Below, in pieces: positions 10,988 to 15,459 of a DNA stretch of 50,754 nt (position 1 is its first letter; each line of letters begins with the position of its first letter). The notes under the pieces were generated by a model. The model saw nothing but the letters and a program-made list of their open reading frames with translations, did no database searches and had not been told where the DNA came from. Position numbers and translations under genes: made by a program. The DNA is taken from positions 1-50,754 of the forward strand of contig JABDKN010000288.1 of assembly GCA_013002205.1 (NCBI GenBank), given 5' to 3'. This DNA is from Granulosicoccus sp. GTDB lineage: Bacteria; Pseudomonadota; Gammaproteobacteria; Granulosicoccales; Granulosicoccaceae.

Positions 10988-11040
10988 AGTTCGGGGCTCT
11001 GCGATGGGTGCCTGATTCTAAGGCAAACCGACACAGAGTT

Positions 11041-11060
11041 CCTGATCAGCCCGGATCAGG
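11041..11060. promoter_or_regulatory. inverted repeat in the divergent pta/regulator region
   Basis: cctgatc and gatcagg form perfect seven-base arms around a six-base spacer, 50 bases before the regulator ATG and 53 before the pta start. Position and symmetry suit an operator, perhaps for autoregulation by the adjacent HTH protein. No binding data can be seen from sequence. Confidence 0.4.
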
Positions 11061-11109
11061 ACAGGTTCAACCAGAAACTCCGCCTCTCTTTGCAGGTAAG
11101 CTTCACCTC

Positions 11110-11994
11110 ATGACGGCAATCGACGAACCCTATCTGACGACCCGTGAGCTGGCCGAGCTGTTACGAATCAAGGAGCGCAAGGTTTACGACATGGCCACGA
11201 ACGGGGAGGTCCCCTGCGTCCGCGTGGTGGGCAAATTGCTGTTCCCACGCGATGAGATCCGGCGCTGGATCGATGCGTCGCGCTCGGGTCCTGTGTCCCC
11301 TGGCCAGCGGGTACTGCCTTGTACTGTCCTGGGCAGTCATGACCCGTTACTGGACTGGGCCCTGCGGGAATCCGGAAGTACGCTGGCCGCCTTCATGGAC
11401 GGCAGTGTTGATGGACTGCACCGGCTGGCCAGGGGTGAAGGTGTGGCCTGCGGTACGCACATTCATGAGAGCGATGGCTGGAACGTGGGGACGGTACAGA
11501 ACCAGTTCGACAACAAGCCGGTGGTCCTGGTCGAGTTTGCCAGGCGTTCCCGGGGACTGATTGTCGCTGCAGAGAATCCACTGGGCCTGACGAGTATGTC
11601 AAGCATTGCAGGACACCGGGTGGCGCGCCGGCAGCAGGGCGCTGCCAGCCAGCAACTGTTCGAGTATTTGCAGCGCGAGGCCGGCGTGGCCCCGGATTCG
11701 CTACAGTCCGTGACCGACCTTGCGCGCACGGAAGATGAACTGGGTATGCAGGTATTCGACGGCCGGGCCGACCTTGCATTCGGTCTCGCCTCAGTGGCGA
11801 CTCGCCTGAGGCTGGGGTTCGTGCCGCAACTGGAAGAGCGCTTCGATCTGTTGGTCTGGCGGCAGTCCTGGTTCGAGCCGCCGATGCAGAAATTGCTGCA
11901 GTTCATGGCCGGGGATGCGTTCGCGGCCAAGGCGAAAAGTCTCGGCGGTTACGATATTTCCGGGCAGGGTACCGTGCACTTCAACGCACCCTAG
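11110..11994 (+). CDS. excisionase-type HTH regulator fused to a PBP-like sensor domain
   Basis: Probable transcription regulator of 294 residues. Residues about 6-55 form a MerR/excisionase-like winged HTH (LTTRELAELLRIKERKVYDM, then GEVPCVRVVGKLLFPRDEIRRWI). The rest matches the periplasmic-binding-protein-like domain found in molybdate/tungstate-type regulators, opening with LGSHDPLLDWAL and including FDGRADLAFGLASVA. The start is the ATG after AGGTAAG; an upstream extension lacks support. The sensor would bind a small anion or molybdenum-cofactor-related ligand inside the cell. A tungstate-binding protein gene lies 2.4 kb downstream on the other strand, a suggestive but unproven target. 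Confidence 0.8.
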   Translation: MTAIDEPYLTTRELAELLRIKERKVYDMATNGEVPCVRVVGKLLFPRDEIRRWIDASRSGPVSPGQRVLPCTVLGSHDPLLDWALRESGSTLAAFMDGSVDGLHRLARGEGVACGTHIHESDGWNVGTVQNQFDNKPVVLVEFARRSRGLIVAAENPLGLTSMSSIAGHRVARRQQGAASQQLFEYLQREAGVAPDSLQSVTDLARTEDELGMQVFDGRADLAFGLASVATRLRLGFVPQLEERFDLLVWRQSWFEPPMQKLLQFMAGDAFAAKAKSLGGYDISGQGTVHFNAP

Positions 11995-12031: not shown

Positions 12032-13339
12032 TCAGAAATCCCTGATGAAGCGGAGCATGAATACGGTGATATCCGGGAACAGTGTCTGCTCGTTCAACGA
12101 GCCGAACTTGCCGGCCGGCTCCGCGCCTGACTGCAGATAGTACTCCGCCGCAATACTCCAGCCGCTGCCCGCTTTCCGCCGGCCGTATTCCAGCCCGACT
12201 GTCAGGCCGGTCAACTCCCCCAGCCGATAGTCGGCAGAACCATACCGGGCACTGTCGCCCGCTGCAGGGCGATCGTTACCCACATAGAACGGAGTGTAGA
12301 AATCGGCGGCTGACTGTTGATACCAGCGCAGGTGTGGCTGCCAGTAACTGCCGCGTTCGGCAGGCAGGCGGAAACGGACGTCCAGCGTGTGGGAGCTGAT
12401 GCCCCAGTCATCGACCAGGAAGCGGTAGGAGCCATCCAGCACCTTGTCGTCTATGGCAGTCTTGTAGTGAGCATAGAGGCTGTGCTTGGTTCGCGAGTCA
12501 GGACGGTTTTCGTAGGCAATGGTCGGCAGGTCCGGCTGCTCGGCAATGTCGAACACCGGATCGCCGGTGAGGGGATCCACCACACTGATAAACTTGTACG
12601 GATCGGTCAGATAGCCGTCAGAATTGCTGAATGAGTAGTTGACCTGGAACAGACTGTGGCGGTTGATGATCTGGGTGACACCCAGTATCACATCGACTAC
12701 CTGCTTGTCGCTGCCTGATCCCTGTCGCAACTGCTCGCTGCCGGCAGCTTGCATGGCCGCGAAAGGGATGGGTTCACCTCCCACTGGTGAGCCCGTGTCC
12801 AGGCCCAGTGACAGCGCACCGGAAACAGTGGTGTTACCCTCGTTGACGTCCCGCGCGAGCCCGGCGCTGACACCCAGAGACCGGTAATCGTATTCCCGGG
12901 ACAGTGCCGTACCCAGCTCGAGTGTCAGGTCCCTGGCTACGGGACGCTCCCAGTTGGCGTTGATCGTTGCGCGAGTATCGCGAAACGTATCATCCAGCGG
13001 AGTCTGGTCGCTGCCCACCTGGTAGCGACCATTGCCCGAGGGTCGGGTAAATGTCTGCGCAAGTCGAGAACTGACAGCGCCGGTTGCCGAGGCACCTGTG
13101 AGCGTGTCCACCGTCAGTTTCAGGGACAGGAATTCATCGGTATCCAGAGCTTTCCTGGCACTGATGACAGGCTCCAGTGCGCGGACCCGATCGACTTCAC
13201 TGTAGAGGAGCAGTCCTGCGCTGGTCTGCCAGCCCTGCATGTCGGGTAACCATCCGGCGCTGGCCCCACCGCCAGCCAGCAGCGCCGCTGTGGCCAGTCC
13301 CAGCGAGCGCCTGAGCGGCGTGCATGCCGCTCGAGGCAC
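12032..13339 (-). CDS. DUF3570-type outer-membrane beta-barrel protein
   Basis: Outer-membrane protein of about 435 residues. The GTG at 13339 gives MPRAACTPLRR followed by a signal peptide ending at GGGASA; the frame is open further upstream but there it only shadows the DUF4266 gene, and the exact start is uncertain. Alternating hydrophobic strands run throughout and the protein ends in FMLRFIRDF, the terminal phenylalanine typical of barrels. The family has no established biochemical role. It follows the DUF4266 lipoprotein gene by ten bases and the thioredoxin gene upstream, a grouping known from other Proteobacteria, often with an ApbE flavin transferase that is absent here. Confidence 0.75.
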   Translation of the reverse strand: MPRAACTPLRRSLGLATAALLAGGGASAGWLPDMQGWQTSAGLLLYSEVDRVRALEPVISARKALDTDEFLSLKLTVDTLTGASATGAVSSRLAQTFTRPSGNGRYQVGSDQTPLDDTFRDTRATINANWERPVARDLTLELGTALSREYDYRSLGVSAGLARDVNEGNTTVSGALSLGLDTGSPVGGEPIPFAAMQAAGSEQLRQGSGSDKQVVDVILGVTQIINRHSLFQVNYSFSNSDGYLTDPYKFISVVDPLTGDPVFDIAEQPDLPTIAYENRPDSRTKHSLYAHYKTAIDDKVLDGSYRFLVDDWGISSHTLDVRFRLPAERGSYWQPHLRWYQQSAADFYTPFYVGNDRPAAGDSARYGSADYRLGELTGLTVGLEYGRRKAGSGWSIAAEYYLQSGAEPAGKFGSLNEQTLFPDITVFMLRFIRDF

Positions 13340-13349
13340 AGCGGATGAA

Positions 13350-13592
13350 TCAGTTACAGCCACAACCGCCGCCCCCGAAGCTGCGACCGCCACTGGATGC
13401 TTCCTTACTGAAATAGATGTGATCATCCATTGCCGAGGCGACAGGCTGGCTGTCCAGCGCCATTTCCGGTCTGGCCAGTGTGCCTCTTTCCCAGGGCTTG
13501 ACACCCAGGGAACTGCACCCGCTGAGCAGGATCGACAGAAGTCCTGCCAACAGGATCTTACCTGTGTGCCGGCTGTAGTCACCATGGATCAT
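13350..13592 (-). CDS. small DUF4266-type lipoprotein with Gly/Cys-rich tail
   Basis: Exported lipoprotein of 80 residues. A signal peptide ends in the lipobox LSGC with Cys26 as the lipidated residue. The mature part has GVKPWERGTLARPEM (30-44), DDHIYFSKEASSGG (56-69) and ends in GGGGCGCN, with Cys77 and Cys79 exposed at the very C-terminus. This matches the DUF4266 pattern as I know it. Function is unknown; a redox- or metal-active tail serviced by the TlpA-like protein next door is a reasonable inference. It sits between the thioredoxin and DUF3570 genes on the same strand. Confidence 0.8.
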   Translation of the reverse strand: MIHGDYSRHTGKILLAGLLSILLSGCSSLGVKPWERGTLARPEMALDSQPVASAMDDHIYFSKEASSGGRSFGGGGCGCN

Positions 13593-13623
13593 TGCAGATG
13601 ATCCCGAGTGCCCCAGGTTCCGG

Positions 13624-14082
13624 TCAGTTGTCCACATTGTCCTTGATCCATTGGCGGATGGCCTCCATGTCCTTCTTCCTGAAACCGACATGCTGGCCGA
13701 TCAACTCCCCGTTGCGGTCATGCAGGAAGGAGGTGGGCATGCCGGGGACATTGAAGGCTTCCGCCAGCATGCCAGACTGGTCGAAAACGATATCGAATGG
13801 CGTCTCGTAGTCACTCAGAAAGGCCTTGGCATCGGCCAGATTTTCATCGACGTTGATGGCCACGATGGCCAGTTTATCTGCATGGGTGTCTGCCAGCTCT
13901 GCCATGAAGGGGAAAGAGGCTCGACACGGTGTACACCAGGATGCCCAGAAGTCGACATAGACGATTTTTCCCTTGTAGTCGGCCAGGTCAAAGTTCTCGG
14001 CGTTCACCTGCTGTTGCGCACCGGCCTGGCCAGCCATGGCCATCAGCATCAGGATGGCTGCGATGTGTCTGGACACTGTCAT
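13624..14082 (-). CDS. periplasmic TlpA/ResA-like thioredoxin
   Basis: Secreted thiol-disulfide protein of 152 residues. The start is the ATG giving MTVSRHIAAILMLM, which opens a signal peptide cut near AGA (20-22). The thioredoxin fold has the redox motif WCTPC with Cys50 and Cys53, and the cis-proline region GMPTSF. ATP-independent reduction or oxidation of cysteines in the periplasm is expected. It is the first gene of a unit with the DUF4266 lipoprotein (31 bases downstream) and the DUF3570 barrel; the Cys-containing tail of that lipoprotein is its most obvious local partner. Confidence 0.88.
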   Translation of the reverse strand: MTVSRHIAAILMLMAMAGQAGAQQQVNAENFDLADYKGKIVYVDFWASWCTPCRASFPFMAELADTHADKLAIVAINVDENLADAKAFLSDYETPFDIVFDQSGMLAEAFNVPGMPTSFLHDRNGELIGQHVGFRKKDMEAIRQWIKDNVDN

Positions 14083-14116: not shown

Positions 14117-14362
14117 TCAGGCAATATCACCGGACCGGGGAGGGCGTTTCCTGCCATCGAGCATGGATCTGGCCAGGTTTTCCCGGTGCATGAGGCTCGC
14201 ATGAATTACGCCAGCGACGTGCACGACAACCATTACCAGTAGCAGTGTAGCGGCCATCTCGTGTACATTTTCTACCCATTGTTCGCCCCAGAAGGCATCC
14301 AGGGTATACATCCAGCCACTCAGTGCCGTCACGGCCATCACGCCGATCAGGCCCGGAATCAT
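14117..14362 (-). pseudogene. 3' fragment of a cytochrome b561 gene
   Basis: The frame from the ATG at 14362 encodes 81 residues that match only the C-terminal half of a bacterial di-heme cytochrome b561: two membrane helices, the segment [20 protein letters not shown] with a haem-ligand-type His, [11 protein letters not shown] with the second His, and the closing [15 protein letters not shown]. The first two helices and their haem ligands are missing; upstream sequence switches abruptly to the tungstate-binding protein gene, whose stop is ten bases away. The remnant itself has no stops or frameshifts. It could be a recent deletion product or a still-translated fragment. A complete homologue lies at 18370-19059. 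Confidence 0.75.
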
Positions 14363-14372
14363 CCTGACTGAT

Positions 14373-15230
14373 TCAGGGAGCCGTGGCGTTTGGGAAAAAC
14401 AACTGCTGCCCATCGATCCGGAACTCGGCAATTGCCCGCTGTCCCTCACTGCCGATGAGCCAGTCAATGAACTTCTGTGCCTCTTCGGCCTTGACATTGG
14501 CGTGCCTGGCGGGATTGACCTGGATGATGCCGTACTGGTTGAACAGTCGATCATCGCCTTCAACCAGAATGGCGTAGTTCGATTTGTTACCGAAGGCAAT
14601 CCAGGTCGCCCTGTCAGTCAGAACATAGGCGCTCATGCCCGTCGCTGCATTGAGTGTGGCGCCCATACCGGAGCCCGTCTCGCGGTACCAGTCACCCGAG
14701 GCAGCCTGAGCGTCGACGCCTGCCAGCGCCCAGAGGTTCAGTTCCGCCTTATGCGTACCGGAGTCGTCACCACGGGAAGCAAATGTTGACCTCGAATCTG
14801 CGATGCCCTGCATCGCCGTGACGATGTCCGAGCTGCCGGCAATGCCGGCTGGATCGGCAGTCGGGCCTGCCAGGATGAAATCGTTGTACATCACATCAAA
14901 ACGCTGGACGCCATGCCCGTCCGCCACGAACCGTTCCTCTGCCGCTCTGGCGTGGACCAGCAGAACATCCCCGTCCCCATTGGTGGCGTTCCTGATGGCC
15001 TGGCCGGTACCCACGGCCACGACCCGCACCTCGATGCCGGACGCTTCCGAGAAGCTCGGCAGAATTGCATCGAGCAGGCCGGAATTCTGCGTGGAGGTGG
15101 TGGACTGGACGATGATGAACGGCTCGTCCGCGCGGCTGGCTGACAGGCTGACGAGAGTGACCACGGTAGCGAGCAGAAGTGTCGCGAGTGCCTGGCGTGA
15201 AATTGTGAGCTTTTTGCGATTTATTTCCAT
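14373..15230 (-). CDS. tupA: tungstate/molybdate ABC transporter substrate-binding protein (TupA-like)
   Basis: Periplasmic anion-binding protein of 285 residues. The ATG giving [13 protein letters not shown] precedes a signal peptide cut near SRADE. The TupA signature is clear: [17 protein letters not shown], followed by [32 protein letters not shown] and [12 protein letters not shown], residues that hold the oxyanion. It would deliver tungstate (perhaps molybdate) to an importer, but no TupB permease or TupC ATPase gene is within the window, so it is an orphan. No strong ribosome site is visible. A ten-base inverted repeat lies 64 bases upstream. Confidence 0.9.
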
Positions 15231-15293
15231 GCACAAGGAAAATAACACAACAAAAAAACATAAAACAACACTTCTGAGACGATCGGAGGGTAA

Positions 15294-15324
15294 TACCCCT
15301 GGTCTCGAGCTGAAACCAGGGGTA
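15294..15324. promoter_or_regulatory. perfect 10-base inverted repeat upstream of tupA
   Basis: tacccctggt and accaggggta flank an 11-base spacer, with no mismatch. It ends 64 bases before the tupA ATG, just upstream of a very AT-rich stretch that would suit a promoter on the minus strand. A repressor or activator operator is the natural reading; it could also form an RNA hairpin. Confidence 0.5.
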
Positions 15325-15459
15325 ACACTCACCATCAACCGATCCCGCGTTTACGCTGACTCATCTCAGGAACGGTACACACCGATTTCGCCAGGGAACT
15401 GTACTGGCTTGCGCGCACACCTTTCTCCAGCAGAACTCCGTGTCAGCTTGTACTGCGGC

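Follow-up and report, generated by a model that had tools for sequence, protein, structure and literature searches.

The closest described relatives of the genes analyzed here are clusters that combine the flavin transferase ApbE with a DUF3570 protein. In the available text of the principal report (PMC8238504, eLife 2021), a Chlorobium DUF3570 protein is flavinylated by its ApbE at two [S/T]GA[S/T] motifs, and 285 DsbD clusters are described with ApbE, DUF3570, and a thioredoxin-like protein, 221 of which have DUF4266, in addition to 316 more clusters without DsbD. The same text suggests that the CXC tail of DUF4266 may undergo redox cycling, links some flavinylation clusters to iron transporters, and leaves the function of the system uncertain. 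The words barrel, beta-barrel, and porin are absent from its main text, as far as this was available. According to the available part of PMC12052999, the attachment motif is D-x-x-[S/T]-G-A-[S/T], and Ser is a poorer ApbE acceptor than Thr. For Erv2, the accessible portion of PMC4019985 describes a C-terminal CXC pair as a shuttle serving the flavin, the electron path in Erv2/ALR being from thiols to the shuttle pair and on to the flavin. Apart from PMC8238504, neither DUF3570 nor DUF4266 is named by DUF or PF number in the literature that we searched, and the term DUF3570 is absent from the available text of both a 2025 Journal of Biological Chemistry review and a 2024 mSystems paper.

We analyzed a 50,754-nucleotide stretch of contig JABDKN010000288.1 from the marine bacterium Granulosicoccus sp. 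(assembly GCA_013002205.1), hereafter called the window, which contains a trio of genes encoding a thioredoxin, a DUF4266 lipoprotein, and a DUF3570 protein. This trio is a split variant of the published system. We consider it somewhat probable that it represents the envelope part of a thiol–flavin electron relay whose flavin transferase is encoded elsewhere, and it probably passes electrons toward the cell surface. As far as we searched, three elements are new: a barrel model with the flavin site at its outer end, an ApbE encoded in trans, and a divergent branch with an altered motif and, for the most part, no ApbE next to it. The initial annotation, made from the sequence, had singled out these three genes, and we found all of them on the minus strand and confirmed them by Pfam, including the 80-residue lipoprotein with its Cys tail. 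Their features are as follows.

12032-14082, minus strand: the trio overall, tightly packed genes in the order thioredoxin, DUF4266, DUF3570.
13624..14082, minus strand: TlpA/ResA-like periplasmic thioredoxin with WCTPC and a signal peptide assigned by eye.
13350..13592, minus strand: DUF4266 lipoprotein of 80 aa, with lipobox LSGC and a mature part of 55 aa, counted from the lipid Cys.
13353..13376, minus strand: DUF4266 C-terminal tail GGGGCGCN with the CGC pair; this CGC end is found in 130/132 homologues and the other two are damaged.
12032..13363, minus strand: DUF3570 outer-membrane barrel (PF12094, AlphaFold model), the mature part being taken from 13258.
13088..13108, minus strand: predicted flavin mononucleotide (FMN) attachment motif DTLTGAS, mature residues 51-57 with acceptor Ser57, running from strand 3 into long loop 2.

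Pfam assigns two of the proteins to DUF families, PF12094 matching DUF3570 at E 2.3e-119 (399 bits against a cut-off of 25, profile 3-423 of 427) and PF14086 matching DUF4266 at E 1.4e-23 (83.9 bits against a cut-off of 27). By eye, DUF3570 starts at a GTG at 13363 or 13339 and hence either overlaps the DUF4266 stop (13363) or closely follows it. The WCTPC protein, whose only two cysteines are those of this motif, matches the Redoxin/AhpC-TSA/Thioredoxin models PF08534, PF00578, PF00085, PF13905, and PF13098 but not PF13899 (Pfam, E up to 0.01). Its best sequence match in the PDB is 3gl3_A (E 1.3e-32), and the ResA subfamily model also matches, below that model's cut-off. Neither DUF3570 nor DUF4266 has a named NCBIfam match at E up to 0.001.

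The published substrate motif is preserved in this copy. DTLTGAS is an exact D-x-x-[S/T]-G-A-[S/T] and the only match in the DUF3570 frame. Across 93 loci, the motif D..[ST]GA[ST] is present in 84 of 94 DUF3570 frames, while seven have GS for GA, two have neither, and one is cut by a contig end; a second motif directly follows the first in 7/94. The initial annotation had described the trio as being without a flavin transferase. This is correct for the window's contig (C80), where there is no ApbE gene, but the whole-genome search found two in the same genome (G000), on contigs C157 and C272. The description therefore does not hold for the trio as such, since DUF3570 is itself the kind of protein that ApbE modifies, it has kept DTLTGAS, and C272 carries an ApbE of the matching clade. 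By eye, the C157 gene adjoins an NqrF-like fragment, whereas the C272 gene adjoins a second DUF4266–DUF3570 pair (L070), beside which no thioredoxin was found. This second pair lies near DUF1501, 4Fe-4S, and DmsC-like genes. In FastTree trees of ApbE, the C272 enzyme is placed among DUF3570-adjacent enzymes and the C157 enzyme in another clade. The DUF3570-associated clade has 89 tips (support 99) and holds 79 of the 80 enzymes taken as DUF3570-adjacent, the eightieth, L078, belonging to the divergent barrel described below. A true lack of ApbE is thus ruled out by the whole-genome search and the ApbE trees, and we infer from sequence that the C272 enzyme acts on the DUF3570 of the window.

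This arrangement is not confined to the window. Fifteen genomes have a barrel locus without a nearby apbE, ten of them from the relatives and the contig scan (G000, G012, G023, G026, G029, and G039-G043) and five from the class sample (G076, G111, G141, G187, and G204). G105, which stands outside this set, has one such locus (its C80) beside another with an adjacent ApbE, and its enzymes are unplaced. An ApbE of the DUF3570-associated clade is encoded elsewhere in 14 of the 15 genomes, G029 and G187 having it at the edge of the clade only. In FastTree, 10/10 of the first ten genomes hold such an enzyme, and among the five from the class sample, G111, G141, and G204 have a clade member, G187 has one at the edge (95 tips, support 94), and G076 has none. 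The enzyme of G029 (L224) is inside the 89-tip clade with support 99; it fell outside the smallest clade with 79 adjacent enzymes (support 15) in the type II tree described below, and inside a 94-tip clade (support 90) in a further tree. In G026 and G029, the clade ApbE is on a contig without a barrel gene. These placements suggest that genomes usually retain an ApbE of the matching clade even where it is not linked to the DUF3570 locus.

How often the components occur together was determined in the best 80 loci listed from a DUF3570-alignment scan of genome contigs, with neighbors identified by phmmer in flanks of up to 8 kb. The expectation that related cassettes often lie beside ApbE was borne out, since 73/80 loci have ApbE in the flanks; those without are L082, L083, L085, L140, L148, L150, and L160, among these, L160 breaks off 67 bases past the barrel gene, and the sequence around L085 extends for only ~4 kb each way. 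DUF4266 is present in 79/80 loci and a window-like thioredoxin in 65/80, making the thioredoxin that flanks the lipoprotein a usual neighbor, as had been noted, while DsbD is found in 13/80 when matches that are merely the thioredoxin frame are left out. On a DUF3570 FastTree of 89 rows (five of the 94 were left out, namely L144, L160, one cut frame, and rows weaker than 1e-20), apbE linkage changes at least five times, and the window's clade (window, L066, L067/L082, and L083) is recovered with support 100. In the class sample, DUF4266 occurs in 58/232 genomes, all of which have DUF3570 (58/58) and ApbE (58/58), compared with 1 and 6, respectively, among 11 sampled genomes without DUF4266. 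In 39 close relatives, the 13 with DUF4266 have ApbE in 13/13 and DUF3570 in 12/13 (G007, at a contig end, is without), and those lacking DUF4266 have ApbE in 19/26; these controls are not kinship-matched, and ApbE also serves other systems. Two unusual layouts were seen. On contig C4 of G029 (L075, L076), DUF4266 lies ~30 kb from DUF3570 on one contig, with the thioredoxin next to the barrel. L086:7629-11537 is a tandem duplication of thioredoxin–DUF4266–DUF3570, followed by DsbD and ApbE.

The Cys tail is nearly invariant. Variability of the two tail cysteines among homologues, which had been named as an outcome that would count against a role for the tail, was not observed, since the CGC end is kept in 130/132 DUF4266 found and the two exceptions, L144 and L205, are both damaged. 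A tail-less DUF4266 query gave 92 frames, 91 of which end CGCN, the other being L144, and of 40 further Pfam-chosen loci, 39 have endings of the same kind (CGCN 32, CGCY 3, CGCEQ 2, CGCD 1, and CGCE 1). Only 80 of these frames (L082-L161; 79 CGCN plus L144) were found without using the tail, the other 12 and 40 having been reached via Pfam searches with a DUF4266 profile that includes it. One locus enters the count of 132 twice, as L067 and as L082. Eight more frames, outside that count, also end CGCN. In a 130-row alignment, where CGC is 130/130 by construction because rows were admitted by that ending, a His is kept in 128, a Met in 128, and a Glu in 124. The mature length from the lipid Cys, measured by a simple rule, is 55 aa in 76/93 type I copies, 53-62 in 12, and unmeasured in five. 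Modeled alone, DUF4266 is predicted to be disordered, with a predicted local distance difference test score (pLDDT) of 55.3 and a predicted template modeling score (pTM) of 0.18, and Pfam finds no thioredoxin-fold match in it. An apparent natural DUF4266–DUF3570 fusion in L144 (7287-9281) was rejected because the tail-coding stretch is missing in the draft and two frames are run together, probably an assembly fault in G-rich sequence. The structure alignments exclude L144 and the tail count treats it as damaged; its frame is one of the 94 scored for the motif. L205 is decayed: its DUF3570 is interrupted by a stop, and its DUF4266 retains the first half only.

An AlphaFold model built from 55 sequences (pLDDT 92.5, pTM 0.86) has 16 strands and bears out the earlier assignment of the third protein as an outer-membrane barrel, so that DUF3570 can confidently be modeled as a 16-strand barrel of this kind. 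The structure matches listed are transmembrane barrels, the first being a BamA model (Z 22.1, 283 residues, root-mean-square deviation 3.6), with chain 6r2q_B of the Mtr complex as one of many (template modeling score 0.41). Kinship with MtrB or any single porin was rejected since the barrel matches are generic, and no sequence relative was found in the PDB at E up to 0.1. Five loops of 18-40 residues each follow an odd-numbered strand, and the gaps after even strands are of at most 6 residues. As a rule, both termini of outer-membrane barrels are periplasmic, which would make these long loops extracellular. The attachment motif opens loop 2 (residues 56-93), whose conservation of 0.70 is the highest of the five long loops (0.46-0.58 in the others; strand mean 0.61). 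The model therefore predicts that the FMN site is at the outer, extracellular end of the barrel. Mature barrels contain no cysteine in 55/55 sequences.

These elements can be assembled into a possible mechanism. A periplasmic ApbE would attach FMN to Ser57 of DUF3570 before or during its insertion into the outer membrane. The thioredoxin, probably recharged by DsbD on C59, would swap its disulfide with the CGC pair, which would in turn pass electrons to or from the FMN on the barrel. DsbD matches in this genome lie only on C59 and C25, and we regard the protein on C59 as the likely electron donor. Besides the lipid-modified Cys, the only thiols of the mature trio are in the thioredoxin and the CGC pair; with no thiol in the barrel, FMN is its only plausible redox center judging from these sequences, and the CGC pair would exchange electrons with it. 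The simplest chain would be thioredoxin–CGC–FMN–acceptor, or the reverse. Lipid-anchored and otherwise disordered, DUF4266 could act as a swinging arm, much like the C-terminal CXC shuttle of Erv2. Such an arm may extend into the barrel from the periplasm, with the FMN at the outer end. In a bolder version, which we regard as unlikely although worth stating, the trio would be a heme-free outer-membrane conduit in which the 55-residue arm threads its Gly-rich CGC tail into the Cys-free barrel and electrons flow from thioredoxin to CGC to FMN. Parts of the initial annotation are retained here. It had proposed a redox or metal center in the tail, maintained by the thioredoxin and presented at the barrel; the CGC pair, the thioredoxin, and the barrel all stand, while the missing transferase does not. 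It had also called the function of the trio undescribed, and indeed the available text of PMC8238504 leaves it uncertain, but that text shows flavinylation of DUF3570 and notes the CXC tail of DUF4266, so that a redox role of the tail had already been proposed in print.

A divergent group of loci, type II, departs from this picture. The sorting is rough and by tail pattern, assigning 31 of the 40 further loci to this type, and L195, L201, and L207 may belong elsewhere; divergent loci of this type include L182-L194, L197-L199, L208-L220, and L078. Their typical tail context is ARGAEGG.GGGCGCN. At the Gly position of the motif (n = 31), they have Ser in 22, Gly in 5, and Ala in 3, with one unread, mostly giving SSAS for SGAS, while the motif Asp, Ala, and acceptor Ser are mostly kept. 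A thioredoxin is present in 29/31 and an ApbE within 3 kb in 5/31. We placed 39 ApbE from 22 genomes in a tree; the divergent locus was read in 20 of these genomes (not in G093 and G143), and part of the ApbE of G096, G135, G199, and G223 was left out. All 39 lie outside the smallest clade that includes 79 adjacent enzymes, whose support is 15, and several group with L078, whose ApbE adjoins a type II barrel and is outside the 89-tip clade, which suggests that ApbEs particular to type II may exist. Six genomes with type II loci (G084, G094, G133, G178, G198, and G200) encode just one ApbE each, and it is far from the trio. Gene families that recur across 30 type II loci, each judged by one tested member, are HZS_alpha/PD40 (28), SH3 plus barrel (27), and a small barrel (25); an apparent second TlpA-like gene was dismissed since that family is the trio's own thioredoxin. 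We do not accept type II as proof of a flavin-free trio, because Asp, Ala, and Ser are mostly kept and every DUF4266 genome checked has some ApbE. Nevertheless, a trio that lacks a dedicated transferase may genuinely occur in type II.

Several observations weigh against a thiol–flavin relay served by a distant transferase. For this copy, the reading rests on sequence and model. The DUF3570 of the window does not have the two attachment motifs of the tested Chlorobium protein, and its acceptor is Ser, the poorer one in the available part of PMC12052999. No window-like thioredoxin was found in 15/80 loci (two cut by contig ends), and DsbD is not inside the window cluster. With FMN at the extracellular end and the lipoprotein presumably periplasmic, contact would need threading through the barrel. 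As to the enzyme in trans, those of G029 and G187 reach no further than the edge of the clade, and in G000, G012, G023, G204, and G111, the clade ApbE has a DUF3570 neighbor of its own, so that it may leave the other locus unserved. The loci of G076 are type I-like, and its one ApbE is outside the clade. Its 3.9-kb contig C155 (L265) shows two DUF4266–DUF3570 units in a row, and the full-length barrel has no exact motif; since the contig ends inside the second barrel gene, a clade ApbE may be unassembled, and G076 may be either an assembly gap or a real exception. Finally, type II keeps the thioredoxin, CGC, and a barrel with altered motif, mostly with no adjacent ApbE, which raises the possibility that the role of CGC may not need flavin.

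The genes around the trio and the remains of a former neighbor bear on whether the locus is intact. The flanking features are as follows.

14117..14362, minus strand: cytochrome b561 stub, covering only positions 103-179 of 179 of the PF01292 profile, just after the tupA stop.
14373..15338, minus strand: TupA-like solute-binding protein (PF12849), a syntenic flank outside the system.
11008..11994, plus strand: HTH_17 plus PBP_like regulator (PF12728, PF12727), a syntenic flank.

The NCBIfam TupA model matches the 14373..15338 product below its cut-off. An ApbE-less order between PTA, the HTH/PBP regulator, and tupA is common to the window and the same-genus sister loci, and L068 and L069, from two other genomes of the genus, have a convergent ApbE at the side of the HTH/PBP regulator. 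In L066, a full cytochrome b561, PepSY_2, and a two-component system adjoin the trio, in ~2.9 kb between tupA and thioredoxin that the window lacks. The cytochrome b561 stub kept in the window is, by sequence comparison, a remnant of the module present in this sister species. The sister loci L067 and L083 keep the trio and give no match for PepSY or cytochrome b561. The window DUF4266 is 91% identical to the copies of two sister species, with a ratio of nonsynonymous to synonymous substitution rates (dN/dS) of 0.06-0.07 by the simple Nei–Gojobori (NG86) method, and the thioredoxin gives 0.14-0.17 against two relatives with dS above 1. Over the trio, dN/dS is 0.06-0.17, with dS above 1 for DUF3570 and the thioredoxin; HTH/PBP pairs with L067 were left out of this set, and one tupA pair had no usable dS. 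From these values, the trio genes look to be under purifying selection.

We consider it most improbable that the locus is decaying, with a trio that no longer functions after the loss of apbE, PepSY_2, the two-component system, and part (half) of cytochrome b561. The ~2.9 kb of L066 absent from the window and the stub left behind would fit such decay, but the three frames are intact, dN/dS is low (though with the high dS of two genes), the motif and CGC are kept, and L067 and L083 likewise keep the trio without a PepSY or cytochrome b561 match. A metal site deserves more weight, although we still consider it rather unlikely. Here, CGC, His, and Met of DUF4266 would form a copper or iron site, the thioredoxin would keep the Cys reduced, and the barrel would be a metal port. 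Conservation of His and Met (128/130 each in tail-bearing rows) besides CGC is compatible with a metal site, and the tail may accordingly have a metal role; a cupredoxin-type family, one member of which was tested (L130:11988-12398), occurs in the flanks of 14/89 type I loci, a hint of metal uptake, and the available text of PMC8238504 ties some clusters to iron transporters. However, the barrel keeps an ApbE motif for which a metal port alone would have no use, and among the scanned window genes there is no metal-cation transporter, the TupA-like oxyanion-binding protein being a syntenic flank.

The electrons could also run in the sulfhydryl oxidase direction, with DUF4266 as a periplasmic thiol carrier for disulfide maintenance that a flavin oxidant recycles. 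The Erv2/ALR path from thiols through the shuttle pair to the flavin, as given in the available part of PMC4019985, offers a precedent, and MsrP-like and MsrQ-like families, one member each tested, are each near 5/89 loci. We nonetheless judge this improbable, as DsbD in the flanks of 13/80 loci points to a reducing supply and the barrel has no cysteine to fold. The thiol–flavin relay that we prefer would matter because DUF4266–DUF3570 clusters are present in a quarter of the sampled class genomes, yet are little named in the literature. The barrel model, the thiol-free barrel, and the usually retained ApbE together define a testable electron route between periplasmic thiols and the cell surface, for which iron reduction is an obvious candidate task.

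Compared with known systems, the window is nearest to the DsbD-kind clusters, as described in the available text of PMC8238504, with which it shares DUF3570 with an ApbE motif, DUF4266 with a C-terminal CXC, and a thioredoxin-like protein. It differs from them in having neither apbE nor dsbD in the cluster, in a thioredoxin that matches Redoxin/AhpC-TSA/Thioredoxin models instead of PF13899, and in one exact motif where the Chlorobium DUF3570 has two. With Erv2/ALR, the trio shares a terminal CXC pair between a partner thiol protein and a flavin, but this is an analogy of mechanism only, since the tail of Erv2/ALR is within the flavoprotein and its flavin adenine dinucleotide (FAD) is in the Erv domain, for which Pfam gave no match in the trio at E up to 0.01, whereas in the window the tail is on a separate lipoprotein and the presumed FMN is on the barrel. 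TlpA keeps cysteines reduced for metal loading in Sco/CuA assembly. That copper-center pathway and the trio have in common a TlpA-like reductase and two paired cysteines accompanied by a conserved His, but DUF4266 lacks a thioredoxin-fold match and adjoins an ApbE-substrate barrel. In MtrCAB-type conduits, a barrel and a redox wire carry electrons across the outer membrane. The trio has no heme motif and we claim no kinship, but if the conduit version were true, a thiol and a flavin would take the place of the heme chains of MtrCAB.

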